Source: Cytophaga hutchinsonii ATCC 33406 (GTDB taxonomy: Bacteria; Bacteroidota; Bacteroidia; Cytophagales; Cytophagaceae). Taken from it: a DNA stretch of 64,000 bases. The translations under genes were made by a program, and so were the position numbers. The stretch covers positions 2,806,001 through 2,870,000 of the forward strand of contig NC_008255.1 in the NCBI RefSeq assembly GCF_000014145.1, written 5' to 3'. This document shows, piece by piece, positions 39,389 through 51,560 of this stretch (position 1 is the first letter of the stretch; each line of letters starts with the position of its first letter). The notes beneath the pieces were generated by a model, which ran no database searches, was not told where the DNA came from, and saw only the letters and a program-made list of their open reading frames with translations.

Positions 39389-39412
39389 GATCTTTTTACA
39401 AGATATAATCTA

Positions 39413-39442
39413 AAGCCTCCTGCTAAAACAGGAGGCTTTTTT
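39413..39442 (+). terminator. Terminator of sdhCAB
   Basis: Perfect 10-pair stem AAGCCTCCTG (39413-39422) with CAGGAGGCTT (39429-39438), loop CTAAAA, then a T-run. It lies 25 bases after sdhB. Confidence 0.88.
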
Positions 39443-39492: not shown

Positions 39493-39544
39493 TAAATCTG
39501 ATAGTGTATGGAAACAGGTTTATTGGTGATTTATAAAAAATTTC
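39493..39544 (+). pseudogene. 3' remnant of a second copy of the YwqK-like cassette
   Basis: About 51 bases are identical to 48040-48090, including the codons for the last residues KSDSVWKQVYW and the stop. The homology continues through the following attC element. The body of that cassette is gone, so the array's left edge is a deletion scar. Just before it, AGGCTTCTTTGATAA (39481-39495) matches the left arm of the family B attC sites, suggesting a mosaic junction. Confidence 0.75.
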
Positions 39545-39733
39545 TGGTAACAATACCTACAATTTATAGCGGTTCGTTGGTCAGTAAACACTAGTACCCT
39601 TGCCTGCTCCGCCAAATTCCTGCGGAATTCTGATGGTAAAATAGAATATGATTTCCGCAGCAATTTGTTTACGCTGTTCCGTTAAACTTCTTATCTTTAA
39701 ATACCGCTACAAATTGCATGTTAACCGTTAGTG
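39545..39733 (+). repeat. attC-like element 1 (family A)
   Basis: About 189 bp. Left box TGGTAAC, right box GTTAGTG. Inverted arms CAATTTATAGCGG and CCGCTACAAATTG (12 of 13 pairs), and an inner hairpin CTGCGGAA/TTCCGCAG. Closely similar to the elements at 45648 and 48092. Confidence 0.75.
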
Positions 39734-39835
39734 GCAATTTTACTGACCGACACACTCCGACAAAAAAAAATGCGACTTTTGTCCCCGTTCTGAAATTCAA
39801 ATCGTCATTAGGACGAACAATAAAATTTTAAAAGA

Positions 39836-40180
39836 ATGAAAGAATTTGCGTTAATTTTCAGACTGAAAAACATTACTGACTTCAAACCATCACCTGAACA
39901 AATGCAGGAACGAATGAATTGGTTAGCGGGCATCGCCTCACAAAACAAGTTAGTGGACAAAGGCAATACACTTTTACCCATTCCAGGAAGTGCGAAAACC
40001 GTAAAGCCTAACAATGTGGTAACGGACGGACCTTACACCGAAATCAAAGAATTTATAAGCGGTTATGTTATTGTAAAAGCTGAAACAATTGACGAAGCAG
40101 TGGAAATTGCTAAAGCCAATCCGATTTTTGACCAAGTCGGAGGAAACATCGAAGTTCGTGAAGTTTTAAAACGTGACTAA
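39836..40180 (+). CDS. DGPF/YCII-domain protein (partner of ECF42 sigma factor)
   Basis: 114 residues with the YCII-related DGPF motif as TDGPYTEIKEFISGY (about residues 62-76), followed by D-E-A-V-E-I-A-K-A-N-P. DGPF proteins are regularly encoded next to ECF42 sigma factors and are thought to act with them; the mechanism is not known. The sigma gene follows after 2 bases. Both lie in the first intact cassette of the array. Confidence 0.9.
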   Translation: MKEFALIFRLKNITDFKPSPEQMQERMNWLAGIASQNKLVDKGNTLLPIPGSAKTVKPNNVVTDGPYTEIKEFISGYVIVKAETIDEAVEIAKANPIFDQVGGNIEVREVLKRD

Positions 40181-40182
40181 TA

Positions 40183-41433
40183 TTGGACGAAACGAAATCA
40201 CATAACGAACTTTTACCTCACTTATTCCGACAGGAATACGCTAAAATGACGGCTGTTTTATGCCGTCATTTTGGTTTAAAGCATATTGAAATTGCAGAAG
40301 ACATAGCAAGTGAAACTTTTCTGAAAGCATCCGAAAATTGGGCAATCAACGGAATACCTGAAAACCCGACAGCGTGGCTTTACGCAGTTGCCAAAAACAA
40401 GACCAAAGATTATTTCAAACACATTTCCGTTTTTGAAACGCAAATCAAAGAAGCAATAAAACCAAATGAAATTGAAACTGAAAAAGATTTTGAGTTTAGT
40501 AGTCAAAACATTTCAGACAGTCAGTTGGCAATAATTTTTGCGGTTTGTAATCCAAGCAATTCAACGGAAAGTCAAATTTGTTTGGCACTTCAAATTCTTT
40601 GCGGTTTCAGCGTGGAAGAAATCGCCAACGCTTTTCTTACAAAACCTGAAACCATTAAAAAACGCTTGCAAAGAGCCAGAACCAATCTTCGTAACGACAA
40701 TTTTAAAATCAAAACATTAGGCGAAACAGAAATCAAATCAAGATTAAACACCGTTTTAAAAACTTTATACTTGCTGTTTAACGAAGGTTATTTTTCCAAA
40801 ACCAATCATCAGTTAATCAGAAAAGAACTTTGTTCGGAAGCTGTAAGACTAACTTTAATCCTGACAGAAAACAATTACACCAACATACCGCAAACAAACG
40901 CATTACTTTCCTTAATGTGTTTTCAAAGCTCACGGCTTGAAGCAAGAACAAACGACAAAGGCGAAGCCATTTTGTTTGACGAACAGGACAAAAGTTTGTG
41001 GGACAAAACGCTGATTGAAAAAGGGAATTACTATTTGGTAAATGCCTGCAACGGAATCGAAATTTCAAAATATCATTTGGAAGCAGGCATCGCTTATTGG
41101 CATACTACACCGACAGACCAGAACAAATGGCAACACATTTTACAGCTTTATAATCAACTTGTTCTTATTGAGTATTCGCCCATAACAGCATTAAACAGGA
41201 CATTTGCATTTGCCAAAGTTTACGGACATAACCAAGCAGTATCCGAAGCCGAAAAACTAAAACTGACAGGCAACAACTATTATCACGAATTGTTAGGTTA
41301 CTTGTATGCTGATACAGACATTGACAAAGCAATTTCACATTACGAACAGGCAATCGGACTAATAAAATCCAAGACAGAAAAACAAACGCTGACAAAAGAA
41401 ATTGAACGGCTGAAAGAAAAAAACAGCAGGTAA
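40183..41433 (+). CDS. ECF42-type RNA polymerase sigma factor with C-terminal TPR-like extension
   Basis: 416 residues from a TTG start 2 bases after the DGPF gene; an ATG at 40246 would remove part of region 2. Sigma region 2 (ETFLKASENWAINGIPENPTAWLYAVAKNKTKDYFK) and region 4 (LQILCGFSVEEIANAFLTKPETIKKRLQRARTNLR) are clear. A long C-terminal extension of about 230 residues with TPR-like helices (SPITALNRTFAFAKVYG, ELLGYLYADTDIDKAISHYEQAI) marks the ECF42 group. Its stop codon lies inside the left box of the next attC element. A two-gene regulatory pair is unusual cargo for a cassette. Confidence 0.88.
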   Translation: MDETKSHNELLPHLFRQEYAKMTAVLCRHFGLKHIEIAEDIASETFLKASENWAINGIPENPTAWLYAVAKNKTKDYFKHISVFETQIKEAIKPNEIETEKDFEFSSQNISDSQLAIIFAVCNPSNSTESQICLALQILCGFSVEEIANAFLTKPETIKKRLQRARTNLRNDNFKIKTLGETEIKSRLNTVLKTLYLLFNEGYFSKTNHQLIRKELCSEAVRLTLILTENNYTNIPQTNALLSLMCFQSSRLEARTNDKGEAILFDEQDKSLWDKTLIEKGNYYLVNACNGIEISKYHLEAGIAYWHTTPTDQNKWQHILQLYNQLVLIEYSPITALNRTFAFAKVYGHNQAVSEAEKLKLTGNNYYHELLGYLYADTDIDKAISHYEQAIGLIKSKTEKQTLTKEIERLKEKNSR

Positions 41434-41576
41434 CATCGGTTTTGCGTAATGGCGAGTTAAGTGTAATTTAGCCAACGATAAAAAAAGCATTGGCTACGGT
41501 AGTGCTGAATTGAACATTTGTGCTTCGATTTCCGCCACTTCGCAAAGCCGCGGACCGGTAGGTGCAACCGTTGTGA
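41428..41576 (+). repeat. attC-like element 2 (single type)
   Basis: About 149 bp. Left box AGGTAAC overlaps the sigma gene's stop; right box GTTGTGA. Arms TTTTGCGTAATGGCG and CGCCACTTCGCAAAG pair with few mismatches, and an inner hairpin TAGCCAA/TTGGCTA is present. Box sequences are less standard than in the other elements. Confidence 0.55.
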
Positions 41577-41641
41577 ATCCAAAAGTGCAGCATTACGATA
41601 TTTTAAGACAGTCTTTATAATACAACTTAAACCCAAGCAAA

Positions 41642-41977
41642 ATGAAAACATTATTCAAATCTATTCTTCTGACAAGTATTTTATTTCTTAGTATTTTAAA
41701 TAATTTACAAGCTCAGAATAAGTATGACTATGCAATGGTTACATATAGATTTAAAGATAAAATAGTTGAAGTTGATATAAATGGTGAGGTATATACTAAA
41801 ATTGATGTAGATGTAAAAGAAAATGGCAACTCGTATTACCTTGTTTCACCGGCATTAAAACAAGTAAAAAAAATGAATAATGAAGGTTGGGAATTATTTG
41901 ATACAGCAATAACAGAACCTAATGGAGGGTATTCAATTTATCTTCTATTTAAGAAAAAAAGCAGATTGACAATTTAG
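41642..41977 (+). CDS. Cassette gene: small secreted protein
   Basis: 111 residues with a signal peptide (KTLFKSILLTSILFLSILNNLQAQ). The end K-M-N-N-E-G-W-E-L-F-D-T-A resembles the DUF4177-type E-G-W-E-L motif, but the match is short. Function unknown. The 200 bases after it, up to the next attC, hold no supported gene. Confidence 0.68.
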   Translation: MKTLFKSILLTSILFLSILNNLQAQNKYDYAMVTYRFKDKIVEVDINGEVYTKIDVDVKENGNSYYLVSPALKQVKKMNNEGWELFDTAITEPNGGYSIYLLFKKKSRLTI

Positions 41978-42179
41978 AATTTCCACTTTGTTTACATTGA
42001 ATAATCACACTAAACATTTTGGCAAATGGATTTTCGATTTGGTGTTGTGAGTAAATTGGATTTGCAGTTAATCCAGATTTAAATAGTAAACATAATAATA
42101 ACTAAAAAATATGGACTGCAATAAATATGATAATCAATAAAAATAAATGGCTTTTAAATAAGCATTCATATACGCCAGC

Positions 42180-42354
42180 ACCTAACAATAGGTAGCATTT
42201 ATTGTAGGCTTGTTTGATAATATTAATAGCGGTGCTTTCATCCGCCGCGGCGGACCGCACACAATAATTAAATTTAAAAGGTTGTGCGGGTTTGGAGTCA
42301 AGGAAATCTTGGCGCTTTCAAGGCCTACAACAAATGTAACCAGAAACGTTATAG
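42180..42354 (+). repeat. attC-like element 3 (family B)
   Basis: 175 bp. Left box ACCTAAC (fits RYYYAAC), right box GTTATAG. Arms GCATTTATTGTAGGC and GCCTACAACAAATG are complementary with one mismatch; centre has the palindrome TCCGCCGCGGCGGA and a CCGCACA/TGTGCGG hairpin. Confidence 0.8.
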
Positions 42355-42362
42355 CCAATTTT

Positions 42363-43094
42363 ATGAAGACAGCTAAATCAACGATAATTTTGACTTTGAT
42401 TATTTTCATTGTAATGACTTTGTTGACAATGAAACATGAAGCAATCTCGGATGGTATTGATACTTATGGTTTTCCATATATCTTCTATGAGCATTTTGAA
42501 GGCAAATGTGATAATTGCTATGATGATTTTGGTTTTAAACCTAGATTTTTATTTACAGATTTTTCATTAGCCTTATTATTATCATATTGTGTTATTTGGA
42601 TTAAGAATAAATTTTCAAAAAGTGAAATGCTAACACAAGACAATAATTACGTTAAAGTATTATTTCGTTTTCATAGTAACGTCTTGGACGAAGAAACAGT
42701 CGAGACAATGTGGGCGACAATAGTTGATAAAGAAAAAGGATTTTACAAACTTGACAGCATTCCATTTTATGCACCATATGTTGCATCAGACGATATTGTA
42801 TTTGCAGAGTTTGACGATCAAGAACAAATGCTAACATACCGCAAGACCGTTGGATATTCGGGCAACTCAACAGTTCAAATTGTGTTAATTGACAAGTCAA
42901 AAGATATAAATCAAATCCGTGACTTATTCAAAGAACTTGGTTGTGTTTCAGAAAAAGTGAATGAAGGATATTTTGCAATGGAAATTCCTTCAACAGTCGA
43001 CTATAAAAATATAAAGAAGAAGTTAGTCGAGCTAGAAACACAAGAGACAATAGGATACGCAGAACCTTGTTTAGCTGACGGTCATAAACTCTGA
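42363..43094 (+). CDS. Cassette gene: membrane-anchored DUF4265 protein
   Basis: 243 residues from ATG 42363. The frame is open upstream to 42210 only because it crosses the attC element. An N-terminal membrane helix (TIILTLIIFIVMTLLTM) and a second one near residue 75 precede a DUF4265-like domain (VLFRFHSN, GFYKLDSIPFYAPYVASDDIVFAE). DUF4265 proteins are of unknown function, often in accessory regions. Cassette ends are complementary (GTTATAGCC and GGTTATAAC). Confidence 0.78.
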   Translation: MKTAKSTIILTLIIFIVMTLLTMKHEAISDGIDTYGFPYIFYEHFEGKCDNCYDDFGFKPRFLFTDFSLALLLSYCVIWIKNKFSKSEMLTQDNNYVKVLFRFHSNVLDEETVETMWATIVDKEKGFYKLDSIPFYAPYVASDDIVFAEFDDQEQMLTYRKTVGYSGNSTVQIVLIDKSKDINQIRDLFKELGCVSEKVNEGYFAMEIPSTVDYKNIKKKLVELETQETIGYAEPCLADGHKL

Positions 43095-43107
43095 GAATAA
43101 CAAATGG

Positions 43108-43280
43108 TTATAACAATAAGTAGCATTTATTGTAGGCTTCTTTGATAATAAGAATAGCGGCACTTTCATCCGCCGCGGCGGACCGCACAAAATAATTAAA
43201 TTAAAATGCATGCTGGTACAGTGTTAAGGAAATCTTGGCGCTTACAAGGCCTACAACAAATGCAACCACAACCGTTATAA
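43108..43280 (+). repeat. attC-like element 4 (family B)
   Basis: 173 bp. Left box TTATAAC, right box GTTATAA. Same arms and central TCCGCCGCGGCGGA palindrome as element 3. Its left box mirrors the start of its own cassette at 42348. Confidence 0.8.
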
Positions 43281-43302
43281 GCAACCTTAGGCACACAACA
43301 AC

Positions 43303-43971
43303 ATGGACAAGACACTTTCTTATTTTGTTTATAGCCCGCCAAAGTCAAATTCTCATGGACATGGTGTACGTGACAAAAACGTAAGACGAGCAACTCAAAG
43401 ATTAATTGACAGTTTTGTAAGCAGTTTTAAAGCTACAACCGACAACAGGCTTCAATTGACTTTAAGCCACGACAAGAACAACGAGTTGCAAAAGGCACGT
43501 AACACAATTGAGAAGCTAAACAATTTCTTAGGTACTGCAAAAAGAGAATGGGACAACGCAGGATTTGAGAAAATGGAAAATACAATGACCTGGGAAAATG
43601 AAAATGCAAATATTCTCGACCTATTAGATTACATAGACAAACTAAAGGACGACAGTTTTTTGCCTTTATCTAAATACTGGATTTCTTGTTTTTATCATTA
43701 CGGAAAAAGTCCAGAGCCATATGGACATATTATGTGTTCAATTGAATCGGGAAGGCTTTTTGTCAGACTGCATTTAATTATTCCTTATCCTATCGATAAT
43801 GATAAATGTTACGAGCTGATATACAAATTTCACAAATCCCTACCGTTTAAATTAAATGGCAATCATTTTAGACGACTTGGGCCGAGCAAAAGAGGCTATG
43901 GTCAATGGAAACTGGACGAAGAAACTCAAAATCGACTTAACGAATGTTTAATAAAATCGAAGATGAAATAA
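43303..43971 (+). CDS. Cassette gene: protein of unknown function, 222 aa
   Basis: Soluble protein without signal peptide. Helical N-terminal half (RRATQRLIDSFVSSFKA, NELQKARNTIEKLNNFLG) and a mixed C-terminal half (YGHIMCSIESGRLFVRLHLIIPYPI). No recognised family. Cassette ends are complementary over 11 of 12 bases (GTTATAAGCAAC at 43274 against GCTGCTTATAAC), which supports that the cassette is one unit. Confidence 0.7.
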   Translation: MDKTLSYFVYSPPKSNSHGHGVRDKNVRRATQRLIDSFVSSFKATTDNRLQLTLSHDKNNELQKARNTIEKLNNFLGTAKREWDNAGFEKMENTMTWENENANILDLLDYIDKLKDDSFLPLSKYWISCFYHYGKSPEPYGHIMCSIESGRLFVRLHLIIPYPIDNDKCYELIYKFHKSLPFKLNGNHFRRLGPSKRGYGQWKLDEETQNRLNECLIKSKMK

Positions 43972-43978
43972 AGGCTGC

Positions 43979-44110
43979 TTATAACAGCACAGTTGCAATA
44001 GGCGGGGTTTCGTGCTTCTTAGACAGCTTTGTGGTAACGAAAAGTTCAGTTCTCCAAATGAACTTTTATGCTAAAAATCCCGCCCATCGCAAATCTGCAA
44101 ACCGTTAGCG
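43979..44110 (+). repeat. attC-like element 5 (single type)
   Basis: 132 bp. Left box TTATAAC, right box GTTAGCG. Arms TTGCAATAGGCGGG and CCCGCCCATCGCAA pair with two mismatches; inner hairpin AAAGTTCA/TGAACTTT. Length is in the classic attC range. Confidence 0.75.
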
Positions 44111-44119
44111 TATATATTA

Positions 44120-44665
44120 ATGATGAAACATTTTCTTTTTATAATTTTGATTATCTGTACTCTTTCTTGCGAAAATAGGATAGAAAAAAATCATTCGTCA
44201 ATTTGTAAGTCAGATTCAACTAATGAGAATTGGTTAAATTTTAAATATGATAGTGTAATTACCTTTGCAACTATTGACCCTTTTTATAGAATTTTAAATA
44301 AAGGGAATTTGATTGATTTATCAGAAATAAATGATACAATTTCTGTTTCATTGTCAGAAAGACAAATTGAAACTTTAGATTCAATTATAAATGGTTTGAA
44401 AAATAAGCCTGGAAAAAAAATCTTTCCAGCCGATTGTTTTAATCCTAGACACAATATAATTTTTCTAAATAGGGACACTTTAGTCAATTATATTTCGGTT
44501 TGTTATGAATGCGGATATTATCGATCAAGTAAACCTAATATTAAAGGTGATTTAAATGCATTTAAAACTTTATTCGACAATTTAGGATTAAAGGTTTTTG
44601 ACAGGCCAGATTATCATAGCAAATACTATGACTCAATCATTCAAAAACGAAAATACATACGCTAA
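44120..44665 (+). CDS. Cassette gene: lipoprotein of unknown function
   Basis: 181 residues. Hydrophobic start and lipobox-like TLSC (Cys17), then a polar mature part (VSLSERQIETLDSIINGL, ISVCYECGYYRSS). Two adjacent ATGs at 44120 and 44123 can serve as start. The stop TAA is part of the left box of the next attC element. Cassette ends are complementary over 10 of 10 bases (GTTAGCGTAT and ATACGCTAAC). Confidence 0.72.
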   Translation: MMKHFLFIILIICTLSCENRIEKNHSSICKSDSTNENWLNFKYDSVITFATIDPFYRILNKGNLIDLSEINDTISVSLSERQIETLDSIINGLKNKPGKKIFPADCFNPRHNIIFLNRDTLVNYISVCYECGYYRSSKPNIKGDLNAFKTLFDNLGLKVFDRPDYHSKYYDSIIQKRKYIR

Positions 44666-44834
44666 CAATAAGTAGCATTTATTGTAGGCTTCTTTGATAA
44701 TAAGAATAGCGGTGCTTTCATCCGCCGCGGCGGACCGCACAAAATAATTAAATTTAAAAGGTTGTGCGGGTTCGGTGTTTAGGAAAGCGCAGCGCTTACA
44801 AGGCCTAAAACAAATGCAACCACAACCGTTATAG
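44660..44834 (+). repeat. attC-like element 6 (family B)
   Basis: 175 bp. Left box CGCTAAC (overlapping the stop codon of the preceding gene), right box GTTATAG. Arms and TCCGCCGCGGCGGA palindrome as in the other family B elements. Confidence 0.82.
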
Positions 44835-44844
44835 CCAATCAGGA

Positions 44845-45246
44845 ATGAAGTCATACAAAGCAATAAAGAGCATTAGTGATAGTTTATATCTTAACCTAAT
44901 AGATGAAACGGACATACAAAAAAGACTTCAGGATGCGGTGCACCAAGTTCATGTGCAGATATCTGAAGACTTCAAATGTTTATTTGGACAAGAATTGAAT
45001 CTAAAAGACTTTCATATCTATGTAGATGACGAGACCTATCGACAAAGTGCGACCGGATTAATCTTGAACGAGACAATTATTGATTATGAAGATTTAATAA
45101 TAAGAGTTGAATGCTTGATTGATCATGGAAGAATATTAATTACAGTAAGGAAAGGAGAAGGATTTTCAGACTTTGAAGATATGGTTTTTCGAATAGCGAG
45201 AGTTCAAAACTCTGAAGGATCTAGTGAATTAAGAGATATTATATAA
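44845..45246 (+). CDS. Cassette gene: protein of unknown function, 133 aa
   Basis: Soluble, acidic, no signal peptide; starts 11 bases after the attC element. Mixed helix/strand (SISDSLYLNLIDETDIQKRLQDAVHQVHVQ, LIIRVECLIDHGRILITVRKG). Family not recognised. The cassette continues for 400 bases beyond it with a broken reading frame. Cassette ends match in 9 of 10 bases (GTTATAGCCA and TGGCTACAAC). Confidence 0.68.
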   Translation: MKSYKAIKSISDSLYLNLIDETDIQKRLQDAVHQVHVQISEDFKCLFGQELNLKDFHIYVDDETYRQSATGLILNETIIDYEDLIIRVECLIDHGRILITVRKGEGFSDFEDMVFRIARVQNSEGSSELRDII

Positions 45247-45396
45247 TCAAAATGAAAATGAATTTAGTAGAAGCTGTAAAATAAAAATCAAGAGGATCTA
45301 AGCATTTGTCTCAATTTTGATAATTAAAAGGGAATCAATTATAGTCATTATGATTACATTGCGTAAGCTCTCAAAGCCACTTGGCACAGCTAATAT

Positions 45397-45642
45397 GAGG
45401 ACTTGGTTAATATTATTTATTTAGGAAGTTTCAGTGATGATCGATTCATAGAGCCAATTATCGAGATTGTTCTTTAAAAGGATATTTTTAGGTGGTATGA
45501 TGATGAGTTGGAATCTACATTAAGAAAATGTGTGCATGCTCTTAAAACAATTGATTCTGAAAAATCATTAATAACTTTTAAAAGACTTGAAAGTCTAAAC
45601 AATGACAATGTGAAATTCGTATTGGAGATGTATGGAAAATAG
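45397..45642 (+). pseudogene. Degenerate second gene in the 44.8-45.7 kb cassette
   Basis: One frame reads EDLVNIIYLGSFSDDRFIEPIIEIVL, a stop (TAA 45475-45477), then KDIFRWYDDELESTLRKCVHALKTIDSEKS and LESLNNDNVKFVLEMYGK to a stop at 45642. It looks like a helical HEAT-like protein interrupted by a nonsense codon and lacking a start. This suggests cassette decay. Confidence 0.55.
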
Positions 45643-45647
45643 ACTGG

Positions 45648-45831
45648 CTACAACAATACCTGCAATTTATAGCGGTTCGTTGGTCAGTAAACACTAGCCC
45701 CCTTCCCTACTCCTCCAAATTCCTGCGGAATCTGATGGTAAAATAGAATATGATTTCCGCAGCAATTTGTTTACGCTGTTCCGTTAAACTTATTATCTTT
45801 AACATATCGCTAACTATGTTAAACGTTACCA
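45648..45831 (+). repeat. attC-like element 7 (family A, altered right end)
   Basis: 184 bp. Left box CTACAAC, right box GTTACCA. Shares the CAATTTATAGCGG arm and CTGCGGAA/TTCCGCAG hairpin with elements 1 and 10, but its right arm is replaced by TATCGCTAACTATG, so outer pairing is weaker. Confidence 0.68.
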
Positions 45832-45842
45832 GCAAGCATAAG

Positions 45843-46391
45843 ATGATAAAATACACAAATATATCCTCGATTGACTATATAAATAATTTGCCATTTGACT
45901 ATGTTGAGATGTATTCATTTCAGCGAGGAACGGAGTTTGAAAAAAGTAATAAGACAAGTCAACAAGAATATGAGAAGTTAAAGATTAGAAAAGAAAAGCA
46001 TAATGATTTGACAATCCTCGAAGAAAAGCGTTTTTTTGAATTACAGCAACTTTTTGGGGTTACACAATATTTAGTCAATGACAAAGGACAATTTCATCCT
46101 TCCAGCACAAAAACAAACACTTTTAAAGCCACAGACCCTCAAATAAACATACTGAAAAATATCTTGAGGACTGAAATTAAGGACGTACCATCTTGGATGT
46201 GTGCTCCTATTTATCGTGATGCAATAGTTTTTTACGACAAATTGAACCAAATCATATCTACTTTAAATATCTGTTTAAGTTGTGAATATATGGAAACGAA
46301 AATGTTTTCCCGCATAAATGGAGACAATAAAACTTACGACTTATTAAGGCATTTTTTTATTGAACTAGGACACAAAATTGAAGACCGATAA
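45843..46391 (+). CDS. Cassette gene: protein of unknown function, 182 aa
   Basis: Start ATG 45843 is the first after the attC right box; the frame is open upstream only across the attC element. Soluble protein, Lys/Glu-rich helix (EYEKLKIRKEKHNDLTILEEKRFFELQQLFG), then SWMCAPIYRDAIVFYD and two cysteines (LNICLSCEYM). Family not recognised. Confidence 0.68.
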   Translation: MIKYTNISSIDYINNLPFDYVEMYSFQRGTEFEKSNKTSQQEYEKLKIRKEKHNDLTILEEKRFFELQQLFGVTQYLVNDKGQFHPSSTKTNTFKATDPQINILKNILRTEIKDVPSWMCAPIYRDAIVFYDKLNQIISTLNICLSCEYMETKMFSRINGDNKTYDLLRHFFIELGHKIEDR

Positions 46392-46399
46392 ATGCCAGT

Positions 46400-46531
46400 T
46401 GGTAACAGCTACTACAACGGATTGAGGTAATTGGTTTAATGAAAAAACGGTTTTGTATTTTTGATGATTTGGCAAATCCGAATAATGGCTTAATTTAGTA
46501 TCAAACCCGCTGTAGTACCAGAACGTTAGGT
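46400..46531 (+). repeat. attC-like element 8 (single type)
   Basis: 132 bp. Left box TGGTAAC, right box GTTAGGT (fits GTTRRRY). Arms ACTACAACGGATT and AAACCCGCTGTAGT pair with few mismatches; short inner hairpin GATTTGGCAAATC. Confidence 0.72.
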
Positions 46532-46573
46532 GTAGTACTACTAGTTAAAATCGAATCATTCAACATAATAAAT

Positions 46574-47110
46574 ATGGAACATTTTATTTTATCAATATTA
46601 ATATCTACATTAATTTTTATCATTATACCTCTATTGTGCGTCGGATTTGTTTTTTTTATTTTTAAGAAAAAGTTAGGACTAAAATTAGCCGTATTTGTAA
46701 GCGTCATTTTATTAATAATATTTAGCTTTTTTATTATTACAAACTTCTACCCTTTAGAATCATTTTATTCAAATAATTTTGAAGAAAATACAAAATTAAC
46801 TTTACCTGATTCTGCTAAACTAATTCGATATTCTGGGAACAATACGATTTATAGTTTTGGGGACTATAACATATCTTATATATATCAATTAGAGACAACA
46901 GATTATAATCATATATACTCTCAATTATTGACTAAGGGATTTCATAGTAGTGATGTGTATCTTGAAACATCTGAAAATGAATATTTAATAAATTCTCCCT
47001 TAAAATATAAGAGAAAGAAAATATTGACAAAAAATTTTGGATTTAAAAACTTTGATATTTTGTTTTTAATAGACAATAAAACAATAATTTGCAATTCAAA
47101 TAAATGGTAA
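46574..47110 (+). CDS. Cassette gene: small membrane protein
   Basis: 178 residues. Two N-terminal membrane helices (FILSILISTLIFIIIPLLCVGFVFFIF and LAVFVSVILLIIFSFFIITNF) and a polar extracytoplasmic domain of about 115 residues. AT-rich codon use. Family not recognised. Confidence 0.68.
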   Translation: MEHFILSILISTLIFIIIPLLCVGFVFFIFKKKLGLKLAVFVSVILLIIFSFFIITNFYPLESFYSNNFEENTKLTLPDSAKLIRYSGNNTIYSFGDYNISYIYQLETTDYNHIYSQLLTKGFHSSDVYLETSENEYLINSPLKYKRKKILTKNFGFKNFDILFLIDNKTIICNSNKW

Positions 47111-47120
47111 TGAATAATAA

Positions 47121-47284
47121 ACCTAAAAATGGACAACATTTATTTTAGGCTTTTTGATAATAGTAATAGCGTTACTTTTATCAGCCACGGCAGACCGCAC
47201 GAAGTAATTAAATAAAAATGTTGTGCGGGTTCTGAATCTTTGCGCTTTCAAGACCTACAACAAATGTTACCACAACCGTTACCA
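47121..47284 (+). repeat. attC-like element 9 (family B, decayed left box)
   Basis: 164 bp. The left box reads ACCTAAA instead of ending in AAC; the right box is GTTACCA. The central palindrome is also altered (AGCCACGGCAGA). It is the most diverged family B copy and is probably a poor recombination site. Confidence 0.65.
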
Positions 47285-47293
47285 GAAACTTTA

Positions 47294-48076
47294 ATGAGAT
47301 ATCGACTAATAATCATATTGACTTTTTTAACTATAAAATCCTATGGGCAATGTGGGCAAGAATATCCATCAGGGTTTTGTCATAGTTCAATATTTGTAAC
47401 TCATCAAGGAGATACGCTCAATAAACTTGATAATTTAGGATTTTATCAAGGCCTTCATTTATATACTTATAGTAGTGACAGCAATACATTTATTATTGGA
47501 AACTACCGTCACGGACAACCTGTAGGAGAATGGAAATATCATTGTAGTGATAGTTCGTACTCATTTGGGCAATTTAAGAGTGGTATACAATCAACTTCAG
47601 ATGGTAACGGAGGCTGGGTTACTAAGAAACAAGGTATCTATTCAAAAGATGGAGTTTGGAAATACTTTGACAAAGACAGCCAATTAATCAAAACTCAACG
47701 TTTCGAACATTTTGATTATAAAAATGGATGGGCAAAAAAGATTTTTATAGTAGACACTAACGGTACTTTCATTTTAGTCAATTTTGAAAGTAAATATAAA
47801 TATTATTCAAAATTTAGAAAGGAAACAACAATCCATTACACCGAGGATGGAATAATTTTATCAGCTGAATATAATAGTTTTTGGAGGGATGTCACTCTTG
47901 AATATTATAATAATAGTCAGGTAAGTAAAAAGACTAAAAGAAGAAAGTTTTTAGGTAAAGCATTAAATAAAACAATTGAAAAAGAATATAATTATAAAGG
48001 ACAATTAGAAAATAAGATAAAGACAACTTGGCATAATCGTAAATCTGATAGTGTATGGAAACAGGTTTATTGGTGA
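47294..48076 (+). CDS. Cassette gene: secreted YwqK-like repeat protein
   Basis: 260 residues from ATG 47294 (signal peptide RYRLIIILTFLTIKSYGQ). Contains MORN-variant elements (GNYRHGQPVGEWKYH, GIYSKDGVWKYFDKDSQLIKTQRF), as in the chromosomal pair at 9.2-11.9 kb but with fewer repeats. Its last 12 codons recur at the array's left edge. Cassette ends are complementary over 8 bases (GTTACCAG and CTGGTAAC). Confidence 0.75.
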   Translation: MRYRLIIILTFLTIKSYGQCGQEYPSGFCHSSIFVTHQGDTLNKLDNLGFYQGLHLYTYSSDSNTFIIGNYRHGQPVGEWKYHCSDSSYSFGQFKSGIQSTSDGNGGWVTKKQGIYSKDGVWKYFDKDSQLIKTQRFEHFDYKNGWAKKIFIVDTNGTFILVNFESKYKYYSKFRKETTIHYTEDGIILSAEYNSFWRDVTLEYYNNSQVSKKTKRRKFLGKALNKTIEKEYNYKGQLENKIKTTWHNRKSDSVWKQVYW

Positions 48077-48091
48077 TTTATAAAAAATTGC

Positions 48092-48282
48092 TGGTAACAA
48101 TCCATAAAATTTATAGCGGTTCGTTTGGCAGGAAACACTTGAGCTCTTCCCTACTCCTCCAAATTCCTGCGGAAATCTGATGCTTAAAAAGAATATAATT
48201 TTCCGCAGCAATTTGTTTACGCTGTTCCGTTAAAGTTCTTATCTTTAAATACCGCTACAAATTGCATTGTTAACCGTTAGGC
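48092..48282 (+). repeat. attC-like element 10 (family A)
   Basis: 191 bp. Left box TGGTAAC, right box GTTAGGC (fits GTTRRRY). Arms AAATTTATAGCGG/CCGCTACAAATT and hairpin CTGCGGAA/TTCCGCAG. Near-copy of element 1, including the upstream gene tail. Confidence 0.77.
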
Positions 48283-48293
48283 ACAATTTTAAA

Positions 48294-49697
48294 ATGAAAA
48301 ATACGACCTTGTTACTTTTTATTTTTGCTATTATTTCTTTTTCCATTTATGGACAGAATGAAAATTTATTATCTATTCAACAGCAATTAAATGATATTGA
48401 TGAATTAGAGCAAAAATTAAAAACTATTCACCCTTCACTTTATAGATTTTGTACTCCAATGGAATTTGATAGCACTTTAAGTGCTATCAAAAAAGGAATA
48501 TACAAAACAAATACAGAGAAAGAATTTTCAGTATTAATATCTCCTATCTTTTTATTAATCAAAGATGCACATACTTGGCAACAATTACCCAATCGTGAAG
48601 AATCAAATACGTTAATACCTTTAGATTTTAAAATTTATAAAAATCAATTGTTTGTTTATAACAACTGTAGCTATAATAATGAATTATCCCCAGGAACAAG
48701 AATTTTAGAAATAAACAATGAAAAATCAGAGGAAATTATAACACGATTAAAAGCATCTGTTGTAACCGATGGATTTATTGAAACTACAAAAGAGAGAGTT
48801 GCAGAAGAATGGTTCAAGTACATATTTCAACCTCAAAATCAGTATTCAATTAAATACCAAAGTAAGAATAAATCAAAAATAGTTGAATTAGAACCATTAA
48901 CTGAACATTTAATTGATTCAATAAGAACAAATCGAACAGAAAACAAAATTCACTTAAAACCAGAACCTTTTAATATAGGTCCATATACAAAGTTATCGAT
49001 TAACAAACGTGATAACTATGGAACTATTAAAATCAAATGGTTTGATAGGGTCCCTTTTACAGAATACAAAAGTTTTTTGGATTCAAGTATTCATAATTTA
49101 AATACAAGACAAATAACTAATCTCATAATTGATCTACGCTGGAATATAGGAGGACCTAGAGAGTACCCAATTTATTTACTTTCCAAGATATTGAATCAAC
49201 CCTTTCGGTATTGCGATTCTTTAATTACGACAAAATTTACTTTTGAAGAAAAAATAGCTTTTGATTCTACAAAAGTTTTTGTTCCAATGGACAATGGATT
49301 CTACAAAGTTGTTAAAAATGCCAGAGGATTAGGGCAGCAAAATCCATCAAATGTAACTTTCACTGGAAATATATACTTGTTAGTAGATGGACAATCAAAC
49401 TCGTCTTCTGCTCAAGTAGCATCCCTAATTTATCAAAATCGAAGAGGAACAATTATTGGAGAAGAGCCAGGTGGCTTATTTGAAGGTGGAACAGGAGAAC
49501 ATCATTATTATTTAACGTTAACAAACTCTAGAATTAAAGTTCAGATTCCACGATATCGAATAGTATTGCATGTAGACAGGTCAAAATTTCATGGACACGG
49601 GGTTAAACCCGATTATGAGGTGAAACCAGATATTACTGATATGATTCAAGGAAAAGATCCTGTAATGGAATTTACAATTGGATTAATAAAAAAATAA
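48294..49697 (+). CDS. Cassette gene: S41-family peptidase (C-terminal processing protease-like)
   Basis: 467 residues from ATG 48294 (signal peptide KNTTLLLFIFAIISFSIYGQ). An N-terminal helical region, a PDZ-like part (PGTRILEINNEKSEEII) and the S41 core: LIIDLRWNIGGP, then GQSNSSSAQVASLIYQNRRGTIIGEEPGG with the Ser nucleophile in S-S-S-A-Q. Probably a periplasmic serine peptidase. It is the largest cassette gene and an unusual cargo. Cassette ends are complementary over 10 bases (GTTAGGCACA and TGTGCCTAAC). Confidence 0.88.
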   Translation: MKNTTLLLFIFAIISFSIYGQNENLLSIQQQLNDIDELEQKLKTIHPSLYRFCTPMEFDSTLSAIKKGIYKTNTEKEFSVLISPIFLLIKDAHTWQQLPNREESNTLIPLDFKIYKNQLFVYNNCSYNNELSPGTRILEINNEKSEEIITRLKASVVTDGFIETTKERVAEEWFKYIFQPQNQYSIKYQSKNKSKIVELEPLTEHLIDSIRTNRTENKIHLKPEPFNIGPYTKLSINKRDNYGTIKIKWFDRVPFTEYKSFLDSSIHNLNTRQITNLIIDLRWNIGGPREYPIYLLSKILNQPFRYCDSLITTKFTFEEKIAFDSTKVFVPMDNGFYKVVKNARGLGQQNPSNVTFTGNIYLLVDGQSNSSSAQVASLIYQNRRGTIIGEEPGGLFEGGTGEHHYYLTLTNSRIKVQIPRYRIVLHVDRSKFHGHGVKPDYEVKPDITDMIQGKDPVMEFTIGLIKK

Positions 49698-49704
49698 AAC
49701 ATGT

Positions 49705-49879
49705 GCCTAACAATAAGTAGCATTTATTGTAGGCTTCTTTGATAATATTAATAGCGGTGCTTTCATCCGCCACGGCGGACCGCACGAAATAATTAAATGG
49801 AAAAGGTTGTGCGGGTTTTGTGTTTAGGATATCTAGGCACTTTCAAGGCCTACAACAAATGCAACCGCTACCGTTACCT
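49705..49879 (+). repeat. attC-like element 11 (family B), last of the array
   Basis: 175 bp. Left box GCCTAAC (fits RYYYAAC), right box GTTACCT. Family B arms with central TCCGCCACGGCGGA. No attC matching its right box was found downstream, so the array seems to end here or the following cassette has lost its attC. Confidence 0.8.
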
Positions 49880-49903
49880 ACAAGTTTGATGCACAAATAA
49901 ATT

Positions 49904-50470
49904 ATGAAAATTATAACCGCTATAAATGAAGATGAATGGGCTTCAATAACACATATTGCAACTACAGTCCATTTGAAGAAAGATCAACTAATCATTCGAA
50001 AAGGCGACCCTGGCAACAAGGAAGTTTTTTTGGTAAATGGAATCGTTAGAGGCTTTATTACAGATGAAAATGGTAATGAGAAAAGTACGTCCTTTTTTGA
50101 AGAAGGAGAGTTTATGAGCACGCAGGCACTTAGAACTAAAAAAGGTATTTCCCTTTATAATTACCAAGCTTTGTGTCGTACAAAGTTATTGATATTCGAC
50201 TCAAAACAATTGAAGGACTTACTATCTGCAACCAAAAAATTATCTGAAATAGGTAAAGCAATAAAAGAAAGAGAACTGACCAGACTTATGAACAGAGATG
50301 ATTGTTTGATGCAAGTAAAAGCCCTTGACAAATACCAGAAATTCATTACGTATTATCCCGCTTTAGAAAGGCAGATTTCTCAACGCTATATAGCCTCGTA
50401 CTTAGGCATCACCCCTGTTTCGCTCAGTCGCTTAAAAAAATCAATGATTGTACGAACTGATAACAATTGA
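49904..50470 (+). CDS. Crp/Fnr-family transcription regulator
   Basis: 188 residues. Cyclic-nucleotide-binding-like domain (VHLKKDQLIIRKGDPGNKEVFLVNGIVRGFITDENGNEKSTSFFEEGEFMS) and C-terminal winged helix (QISQRYIASYLGITPVSLSRLKKS). The helix-turn-helix is short, as in Bacteroidota members. Lies between the last attC and a membrane-protein gene, which it probably regulates. It may be the last cassette or the first flanking gene. Confidence 0.88.
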   Translation: MKIITAINEDEWASITHIATTVHLKKDQLIIRKGDPGNKEVFLVNGIVRGFITDENGNEKSTSFFEEGEFMSTQALRTKKGISLYNYQALCRTKLLIFDSKQLKDLLSATKKLSEIGKAIKERELTRLMNRDDCLMQVKALDKYQKFITYYPALERQISQRYIASYLGITPVSLSRLKKSMIVRTDNN

Positions 50471-51139: not shown

Positions 51140-51437
51140 TTCACCGTGGTCTGTTTCACCGTGTTCTGTGGCACACAGAACACCAGGGGTAAAATGAATT
51201 AAAAAAGAATTTATTCATGTGTTAGATATATTACTTATTAGGTTGAAGTGATAGTAATTATTAACTTGATGCAGCAGTGACTTTCACCGTGTTCTGTGGC
51301 ACACAGAACACCAAGGGTAAAATGAGTTAAAAAAGAATTTATTCATGTGTTAGATATATTACTTATTAGGTTGAAGTGATAGTAATTATTAACTTGATGC
51401 AACAGTGAATGGTCTGTGTGCCACAGACCACGGTGAA
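51140..51437. repeat. 298-bp element with inverted ends and a 128-bp tandem duplication
   Basis: TTCACCGTGGTCTG (51140-51153) is the exact reverse complement of CAGACCACGGTGAA (51424-51437). Inside, 51154-51281 and 51282-51408 are two copies of a 128-bp unit with only a few differences. Each unit starts with the palindrome GTGTTCTGTG-GC-ACACAGAACAC. A related palindrome GGTCTGTG-TGC-CACAGACC closes the element, and a diverged relative lies at 3093-3111. No gene is inside. Confidence 0.75.
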
Positions 51438-51560
51438 TGTATGTTAGACATTGCACTACATCAGGCGGAGTTTACGCCGGACGATATTTCTCGTCTTCCT
51501 ATTTGTTCATAGCTTTCAACATGGTACCTTCGTCTAATAAATAACTCATCATTCTCTTCC

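Follow-up and report, generated by a model that had tools for sequence, protein, structure and literature searches.

A sigma-factor operon probably packaged as an integron gene cassette in Cytophaga hutchinsonii

Can an integron gene cassette carry a sigma factor together with a partner gene and a promoter of its own? The question is raised by Cytophaga hutchinsonii ATCC 33406, whose genome is a single contig of 4,433,218 bases. A stretch of 64,000 nucleotides of it (NC_008255.1, positions 2,806,001 to 2,870,000; the window, to which coordinates refer unless stated otherwise) contains a ~10-kb cassette array at 39.5-49.9 kb, in whose first intact cassette the initial annotation had placed a DGPF/YCII protein and its ECF42-type sigma factor. 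Sequence comparison indicates that this is probably a self-contained regulatory operon in the form of an integron gene cassette. The annotation took one gene without regulators to be the norm for cassettes, which needs softening: passages in PMC8618304 and PMC8876359 describe cassettes with two ORFs, toxin-antitoxin pairs among them, and promoters carried by cassettes. The locus shares with toxin-antitoxin cassettes, as these passages present them, two genes, an own promoter and one attC, but its cargo is a sigma factor with its partner, and its promoter would be read by the cassette's own sigma. Two-ORF cassettes, cassette promoters and ECF42-YCII operons are known already. What was not found in print is a sigma factor as an integron cassette; among the open-licence papers, which give no proof of absence, there was also none with ECF42 and DGPF together.

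The cassette extends from a GTT core at 39727 to a core at 41557 and contains, on the plus strand, a 109-nt leader, a YCII/DGPF gene and an ECF sigma gene. The first gene (39836..40180) encodes a DGPF/YCII protein of 114 aa (PF03795, E 6.8e-10), and the second (40183..41433) an ECF42-type sigma factor of 416 aa with matches to Sigma70_r2, Sigma70_r4_2 and DUF6596 (2e-33). The sigma gene starts with TTG, 2 nt past the DGPF stop, and is probably translationally coupled to the DGPF gene. Its own stop, TAA (41431-41433), overlaps the AAC of the R'' box in the following attC-like site, a1, and so lies inside the next attC box, as had been read from the sequence. In the AlphaFold2 model of the sigma protein (mean pLDDT 83) the C-terminal part is all-helical, and its best structural alignments are with TPR domains (Z up to 14.6, rmsd 3.8 over 195 residues); a profile search with the protein matches designed TPR proteins. 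The Pfam matches, the model and the position of the TTG together bear out the annotated two-gene cassette with a TPR-like extension.

This organization is that of the ECF42 group, for which sections of PMC8999054 and PMC6180224 describe, in S. venezuelae, P. putida ECF-10 and S. meliloti RpoE10, a sigma2-sigma4 core with a ~200-residue TPR extension and a YCII gene directly upstream. Sigma70 regions 2 and 4, the C-terminal TPR/DUF6596 extension and an adjoining YCII/DGPF gene are all found here. The domain layout, the upstream YCII gene and a TGTC-N19-CGTC promoter are common to those operons and the present one. However, attC sites are not mentioned in these sections, whereas here operon and promoter are bounded by attC-like sites.

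The array is separated from sdhB by a strong terminator-like hairpin (39412-39439), located 3' of sdhB, which would isolate the array from the sdhB side. Its cassettes lie in uniform orientation between palindromic repeats of 120-183 nt. A truncated cassette tail on the plus strand (39493..39548), which together with its attC is 88% identical to 48040-48201, stands ahead of the sigma cassette, and the description of the latter as the first intact cassette is therefore correct. The site a0 (39543..39735, plus strand; arm pairing equalled by 2 of 500 shuffles) ends in the core GTTAGTGGC at 39727 that opens the cassette. At the other end, a1 (41426..41565, plus strand; 1 of 500 shuffles) carries the core GGTAGGTGC at 41557; an alternative core, GTTGTGAAT at 41570, was dropped, as GGTAGGTGC fits the end core of the next cassette at 6/6 variable positions. 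That cassette (41558..42190, plus strand) contains a 111-aa ORF (41642-41977), and the remainder of the array (42178..49881, plus strand) consists of a2-a10 and eight more cassettes, again in one orientation. The other cassette ORFs (41642-49697) are mostly without Pfam match, the exceptions being DUF4265 (42210-43094) and a peptidase S41 (48267-49697).

The palindromes behave as attC sites in several respects. Our own blind scan, whose only requirements are TAAC or CAAC at the start, CGTTR at the end and paired arms, returns eight sites on the strand of the array, none on the opposite strand and one in four control stretches of the same length. It recovers 8 of the 11 sites identified by eye, including a0, and misses a1, a6 and a8. 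In all 11, only 0-21 of 500 shuffles pair their arms as well, the weakest being a6 (19/500) and a7 (21/500). Across 10 cassettes, the cores at the start and end of the same cassette are complementary at 49 of 60 positions, against a mean of 25.6 when cores are re-paired at random (0 of 20,000 shuffles as high); such complementarity within cassettes is the trace expected from cassette circles. The array thus shows gene units between attC sites, paired R and L boxes and a single orientation, as integron cassettes do.

Further elements accompany the array. The last attC is followed by a gene with a cyclic-nucleotide-binding domain (49904-50470), and 51154-51440 contains a 127-nt unit in two tandem copies (98%), then an inverted 28-31 nt copy of the unit's start. 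Elsewhere in the genome, three further attC-like copies of the a0 type, 78-83% identical, lie at G000:C1:1507033-1507219, 1511372-1511551 and 2689014-2689197 (L083, L084 and L082, respectively). These stretches are perhaps small clusters; the blind scan finds only one site in them.

If the unit is a cassette, its edges should be found again in other surroundings. The loci sampled comprise 65 with relatives in named genomes and further ones from a class search, in which 30 of 395 genomes encode relatives at E 1e-100 or better. Edges could be compared at 66 loci, the window included. Five of them have 9-nt start and end cores that are exactly complementary, where 0.28 would be expected: L009 (Pedobacter), L013 (Chitinophagaceae), L048 (Arachidicoccus), L058 (Ulvibacter) and L111. 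The last is taken as chance, with no attC-like site found beside it; at L048 the pair picked by the script is not that of the cassette, and the true pair, GTTAGCGGC/GCCGCTAAC, is likewise exact. The cores differ by one mismatch at six of the 66 loci, of which three (L012, L052 and L065) are laid out like a cassette. In the window, too, the script picked an unrelated pair; the true cores match at 3/6 positions.

Identity between the cassettes drops sharply to background at the GTT core. The leader (39727..39835, plus strand) is 72-91% identical to those of six relatives, and 70-91% across all 21 pairs of the window, L009, L012, L013, L048, L024 and L065, while the 100 nt ahead of the core remain within the range of shuffles in 20 of the 21 pairs (the exception is L048-L065, 66 vs 63). 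An attC flanks the pair at either end in L013 and L065, and in L024 the two flanking sites are degenerate; L009, L010, L048, L052 and L058 show an attC on one side. In the blind scan of 78 loci (593,083 bases), the strand of the sigma gene has 18 sites and the opposite strand 8, and at eight loci a site directly adjoins the pair (L009, L013, L022, L048, L049, L058, L065 and L107). The apparent attC of L022 is not accepted, since it looks like a terminator hairpin, and the 3' attC of L012 receives no support from arm pairing (227 of 500 shuffles as good). The genes behind the cassette differ, being a SnoaL-like ORF in L013, a Crp-like gene in L012 (L012:5463-6038) and an EthD-like ORF in L024, all named by eye. 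The check proposed with the initial annotation, for the pair between attC sites of other genomes, supports its occurrence at cassette edges elsewhere, in changed surroundings. Some copies are modified: a third gene lies between DGPF and sigma in L010 (RidA-like) and L058 (DUF1569-like, both names by eye), L049 is an enlarged version with a membrane-protein gene behind the sigma factor, and the sigma genes of L048 and L065 are broken, possibly by assembly error as both are MAGs.

The proteins point in the same direction as the edges. Sigma and sdhB identities between the window and its relatives are 90/72% for L009, 90/68% for L048, 87/66% for L013, 87/71% for L010 and 86/73% for L012. In the sigma tree, from which rows below 380 aa (L048 and L065 among them) were dropped, the window protein belongs to a clade of eight rows (100/82) with four other cassette-borne copies and three without edges seen. 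ECF42 proteins of its own family fall in other clades, and the ECF42 of the same genus is only 54% identical, a foreign placement in line with the suspected mobility. Synteny with sdhB in relatives would have spoken for an ordinary chromosomal pair; in four related genomes (L142-L145), two of the same genus, no DGPF-ECF42 pair was found beside sdhB. In G416, the helicase gene located here beyond the array follows sdhB at a distance of ~4.7 kb, and other genes fill the interval. From the shared edges in different surroundings, a sigma factor closer than sdhB and this absence at the sdhB side, the pair appears to have moved horizontally as a self-contained cassette. As carriers, phages were rejected (0 of 6 candidate stretches in viral contigs encode a relative), and so were plasmids (246 records, all below 60% identity).

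The window copy itself is in a different state. Its start and end cores, with 3/6 matches, are one of the two worst fits among the 10 cassettes, and the core at 41557 reads GGT where the other cores read GTT. A search of the host genome for integron integrases gave 0 matches over the TIGR02249 cut-off, so that the intI gene next to the array that marks a complete integron is lacking. Because of the missing integrase, the poor core fit and the GGT, excision of the window copy is unlikely. With at least two attC and no integrase nearby, the array corresponds, by our own attC scan, to a CALIN, with which it shares several attC-like sites and a genome without integrase over the cut-off. Its host is a member of the Cytophagales, whereas the part of PMC9024848 (IntegronFinder 2.0) on Bacteroidetes calls integrons scarce there and names only In0 at first and a single complete integron (Salinibacter) since. 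The term mobile, used in the initial annotation, therefore suits the cassette, whose horizontal movement is suggested by the comparisons above, but for the window copy probably refers to the past. This copy is probably a stranded version of a cassette with present or past mobility in other Bacteroidota. That the attC travels along with its cassette is weakly indicated by a1, which is 68/66% identical to the attC of L009/L010 and 64% to a4 of its own array.

The leader includes a predicted ECF42 promoter, TGTCCC-N17-CGTCA (39780..39807, plus strand), upstream of DGPF, the position at which ECF42 systems have a TGTC...CGTC promoter ahead of the YCII gene. With at least 10 of 11 positions matching, this motif occurs in 42 of 67 loci and in no shuffle, nearly always 52-75 nt ahead of the DGPF start. 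Three promoters listed with RpoE10, an ECF42 member of S. meliloti, in Table 1 of PMC6180224 have TGTC and CGTC, and by our own count on that table the spacing equals that of the cassette motif. Given this conservation and spacing, the cassette likely supplies its own cognate promoter. An exact match to the motif occurs only once in the host genome, which the annotation had suggested searching for it, and lies upstream of DGPF at the cassette. The further proposal that the sigma factor rewires host transcription through additional promoters of the recipient draws on its being whole and the sole DUF6596 protein of the genome. However, besides this one exact promoter there are only 10 one-mismatch sites against 46 in the backwards control, no excess, and rewiring is rejected as very improbable.

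How the cassette would work can be outlined from its parts. A DGPF-ECF42 operon with an ECF42-type promoter would have gained an attC whose R'' box overlaps the sigma stop, an anatomy visible in the window. Recombination by an integrase at attC sites, together with wider horizontal transfer, would then have carried it through the Bacteroidota, as suggested by edges that stay constant while the surroundings change and by sigma proteins that are more alike than a housekeeping protein is. In the host genome it probably became stranded in an integrase-less attC cluster. The sigma factor would be held and released via the TPR extension, perhaps by the DGPF partner; for ECF42, a passage of the review PMC8999054 proposes that the TPR part mediates control through contact with a protein, for which YCII is a candidate. 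Once released, it would switch on the promoter of its own cassette and require no integron promoter. Results for RpoE10 given in PMC6180224, in which this factor did not raise its own YCII operon in S. meliloti, count against self-activation.

Two other accounts of the attC-like sites have to be weighed against an integron cassette. The recombinase for the cassette is mostly unseen: an IntI over the cut-off is present in just 1 of 20 genomes with close relatives and in 1 of 395 class genomes. This scarcity, the length of the window sites and the lack of any Rfam family match leave a modest chance that the sites belong to another Bacteroidota mobile system, moved by a different tyrosine recombinase. 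Yet in core, arm pairing and start/end complementarity the sites correspond to attC, and the genome of L024 does encode an integron integrase that exceeds the cut-off (291 bits), on a contig other than that of the cassette. Two Bacteroidota genomes have integron integrases over the NCBIfam cut-off, at L117 (a Chitinophagaceae MAG, 291 bits) and L167 (a class member, 422 bits). An ordinary chromosomal ECF42 operon might also have landed between attC-like repeats, the cassette being incidental. The majority of DGPF-ECF42 pairs do lie outside attC sites, cassette edges being absent in most relatives examined (e.g., L014-L019), and the cores in the window fit poorly. But edges that recur in several families, the end of identity at GTT and the missing pair at sdhB in relatives make this account quite improbable. 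The integron cassette remains the probable reading.

A further possibility concerns its neighbors. The cassette could be a portable, self-switching array promoter: on release of the ECF42 factor, transcription from its promoter would pass through its own attC and activate the cassettes downstream. No intact cassette precedes it in this array, an attC looked for upstream of the pair in L009 was not found, and no plus-strand terminator-like sites were found between the sigma cassette and 43.7 kb; we give this possibility only a small chance. If true, an integrase-less array would have a regulated promoter in place of the integron's Pc.

As a packaged operon, the cassette would unite an initiation factor, its likely target promoter and a partner gene in one recombination unit, so that a whole regulatory circuit, and not just an enzyme, could be exchanged. 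It also indicates cassette traffic across the Bacteroidota, in which integrons are reported as very rare in the relevant part of PMC9024848, and the array is itself of interest for this group. The function of ECF42 and DGPF becomes testable in isolation, as the unit should work alone in a naive host.
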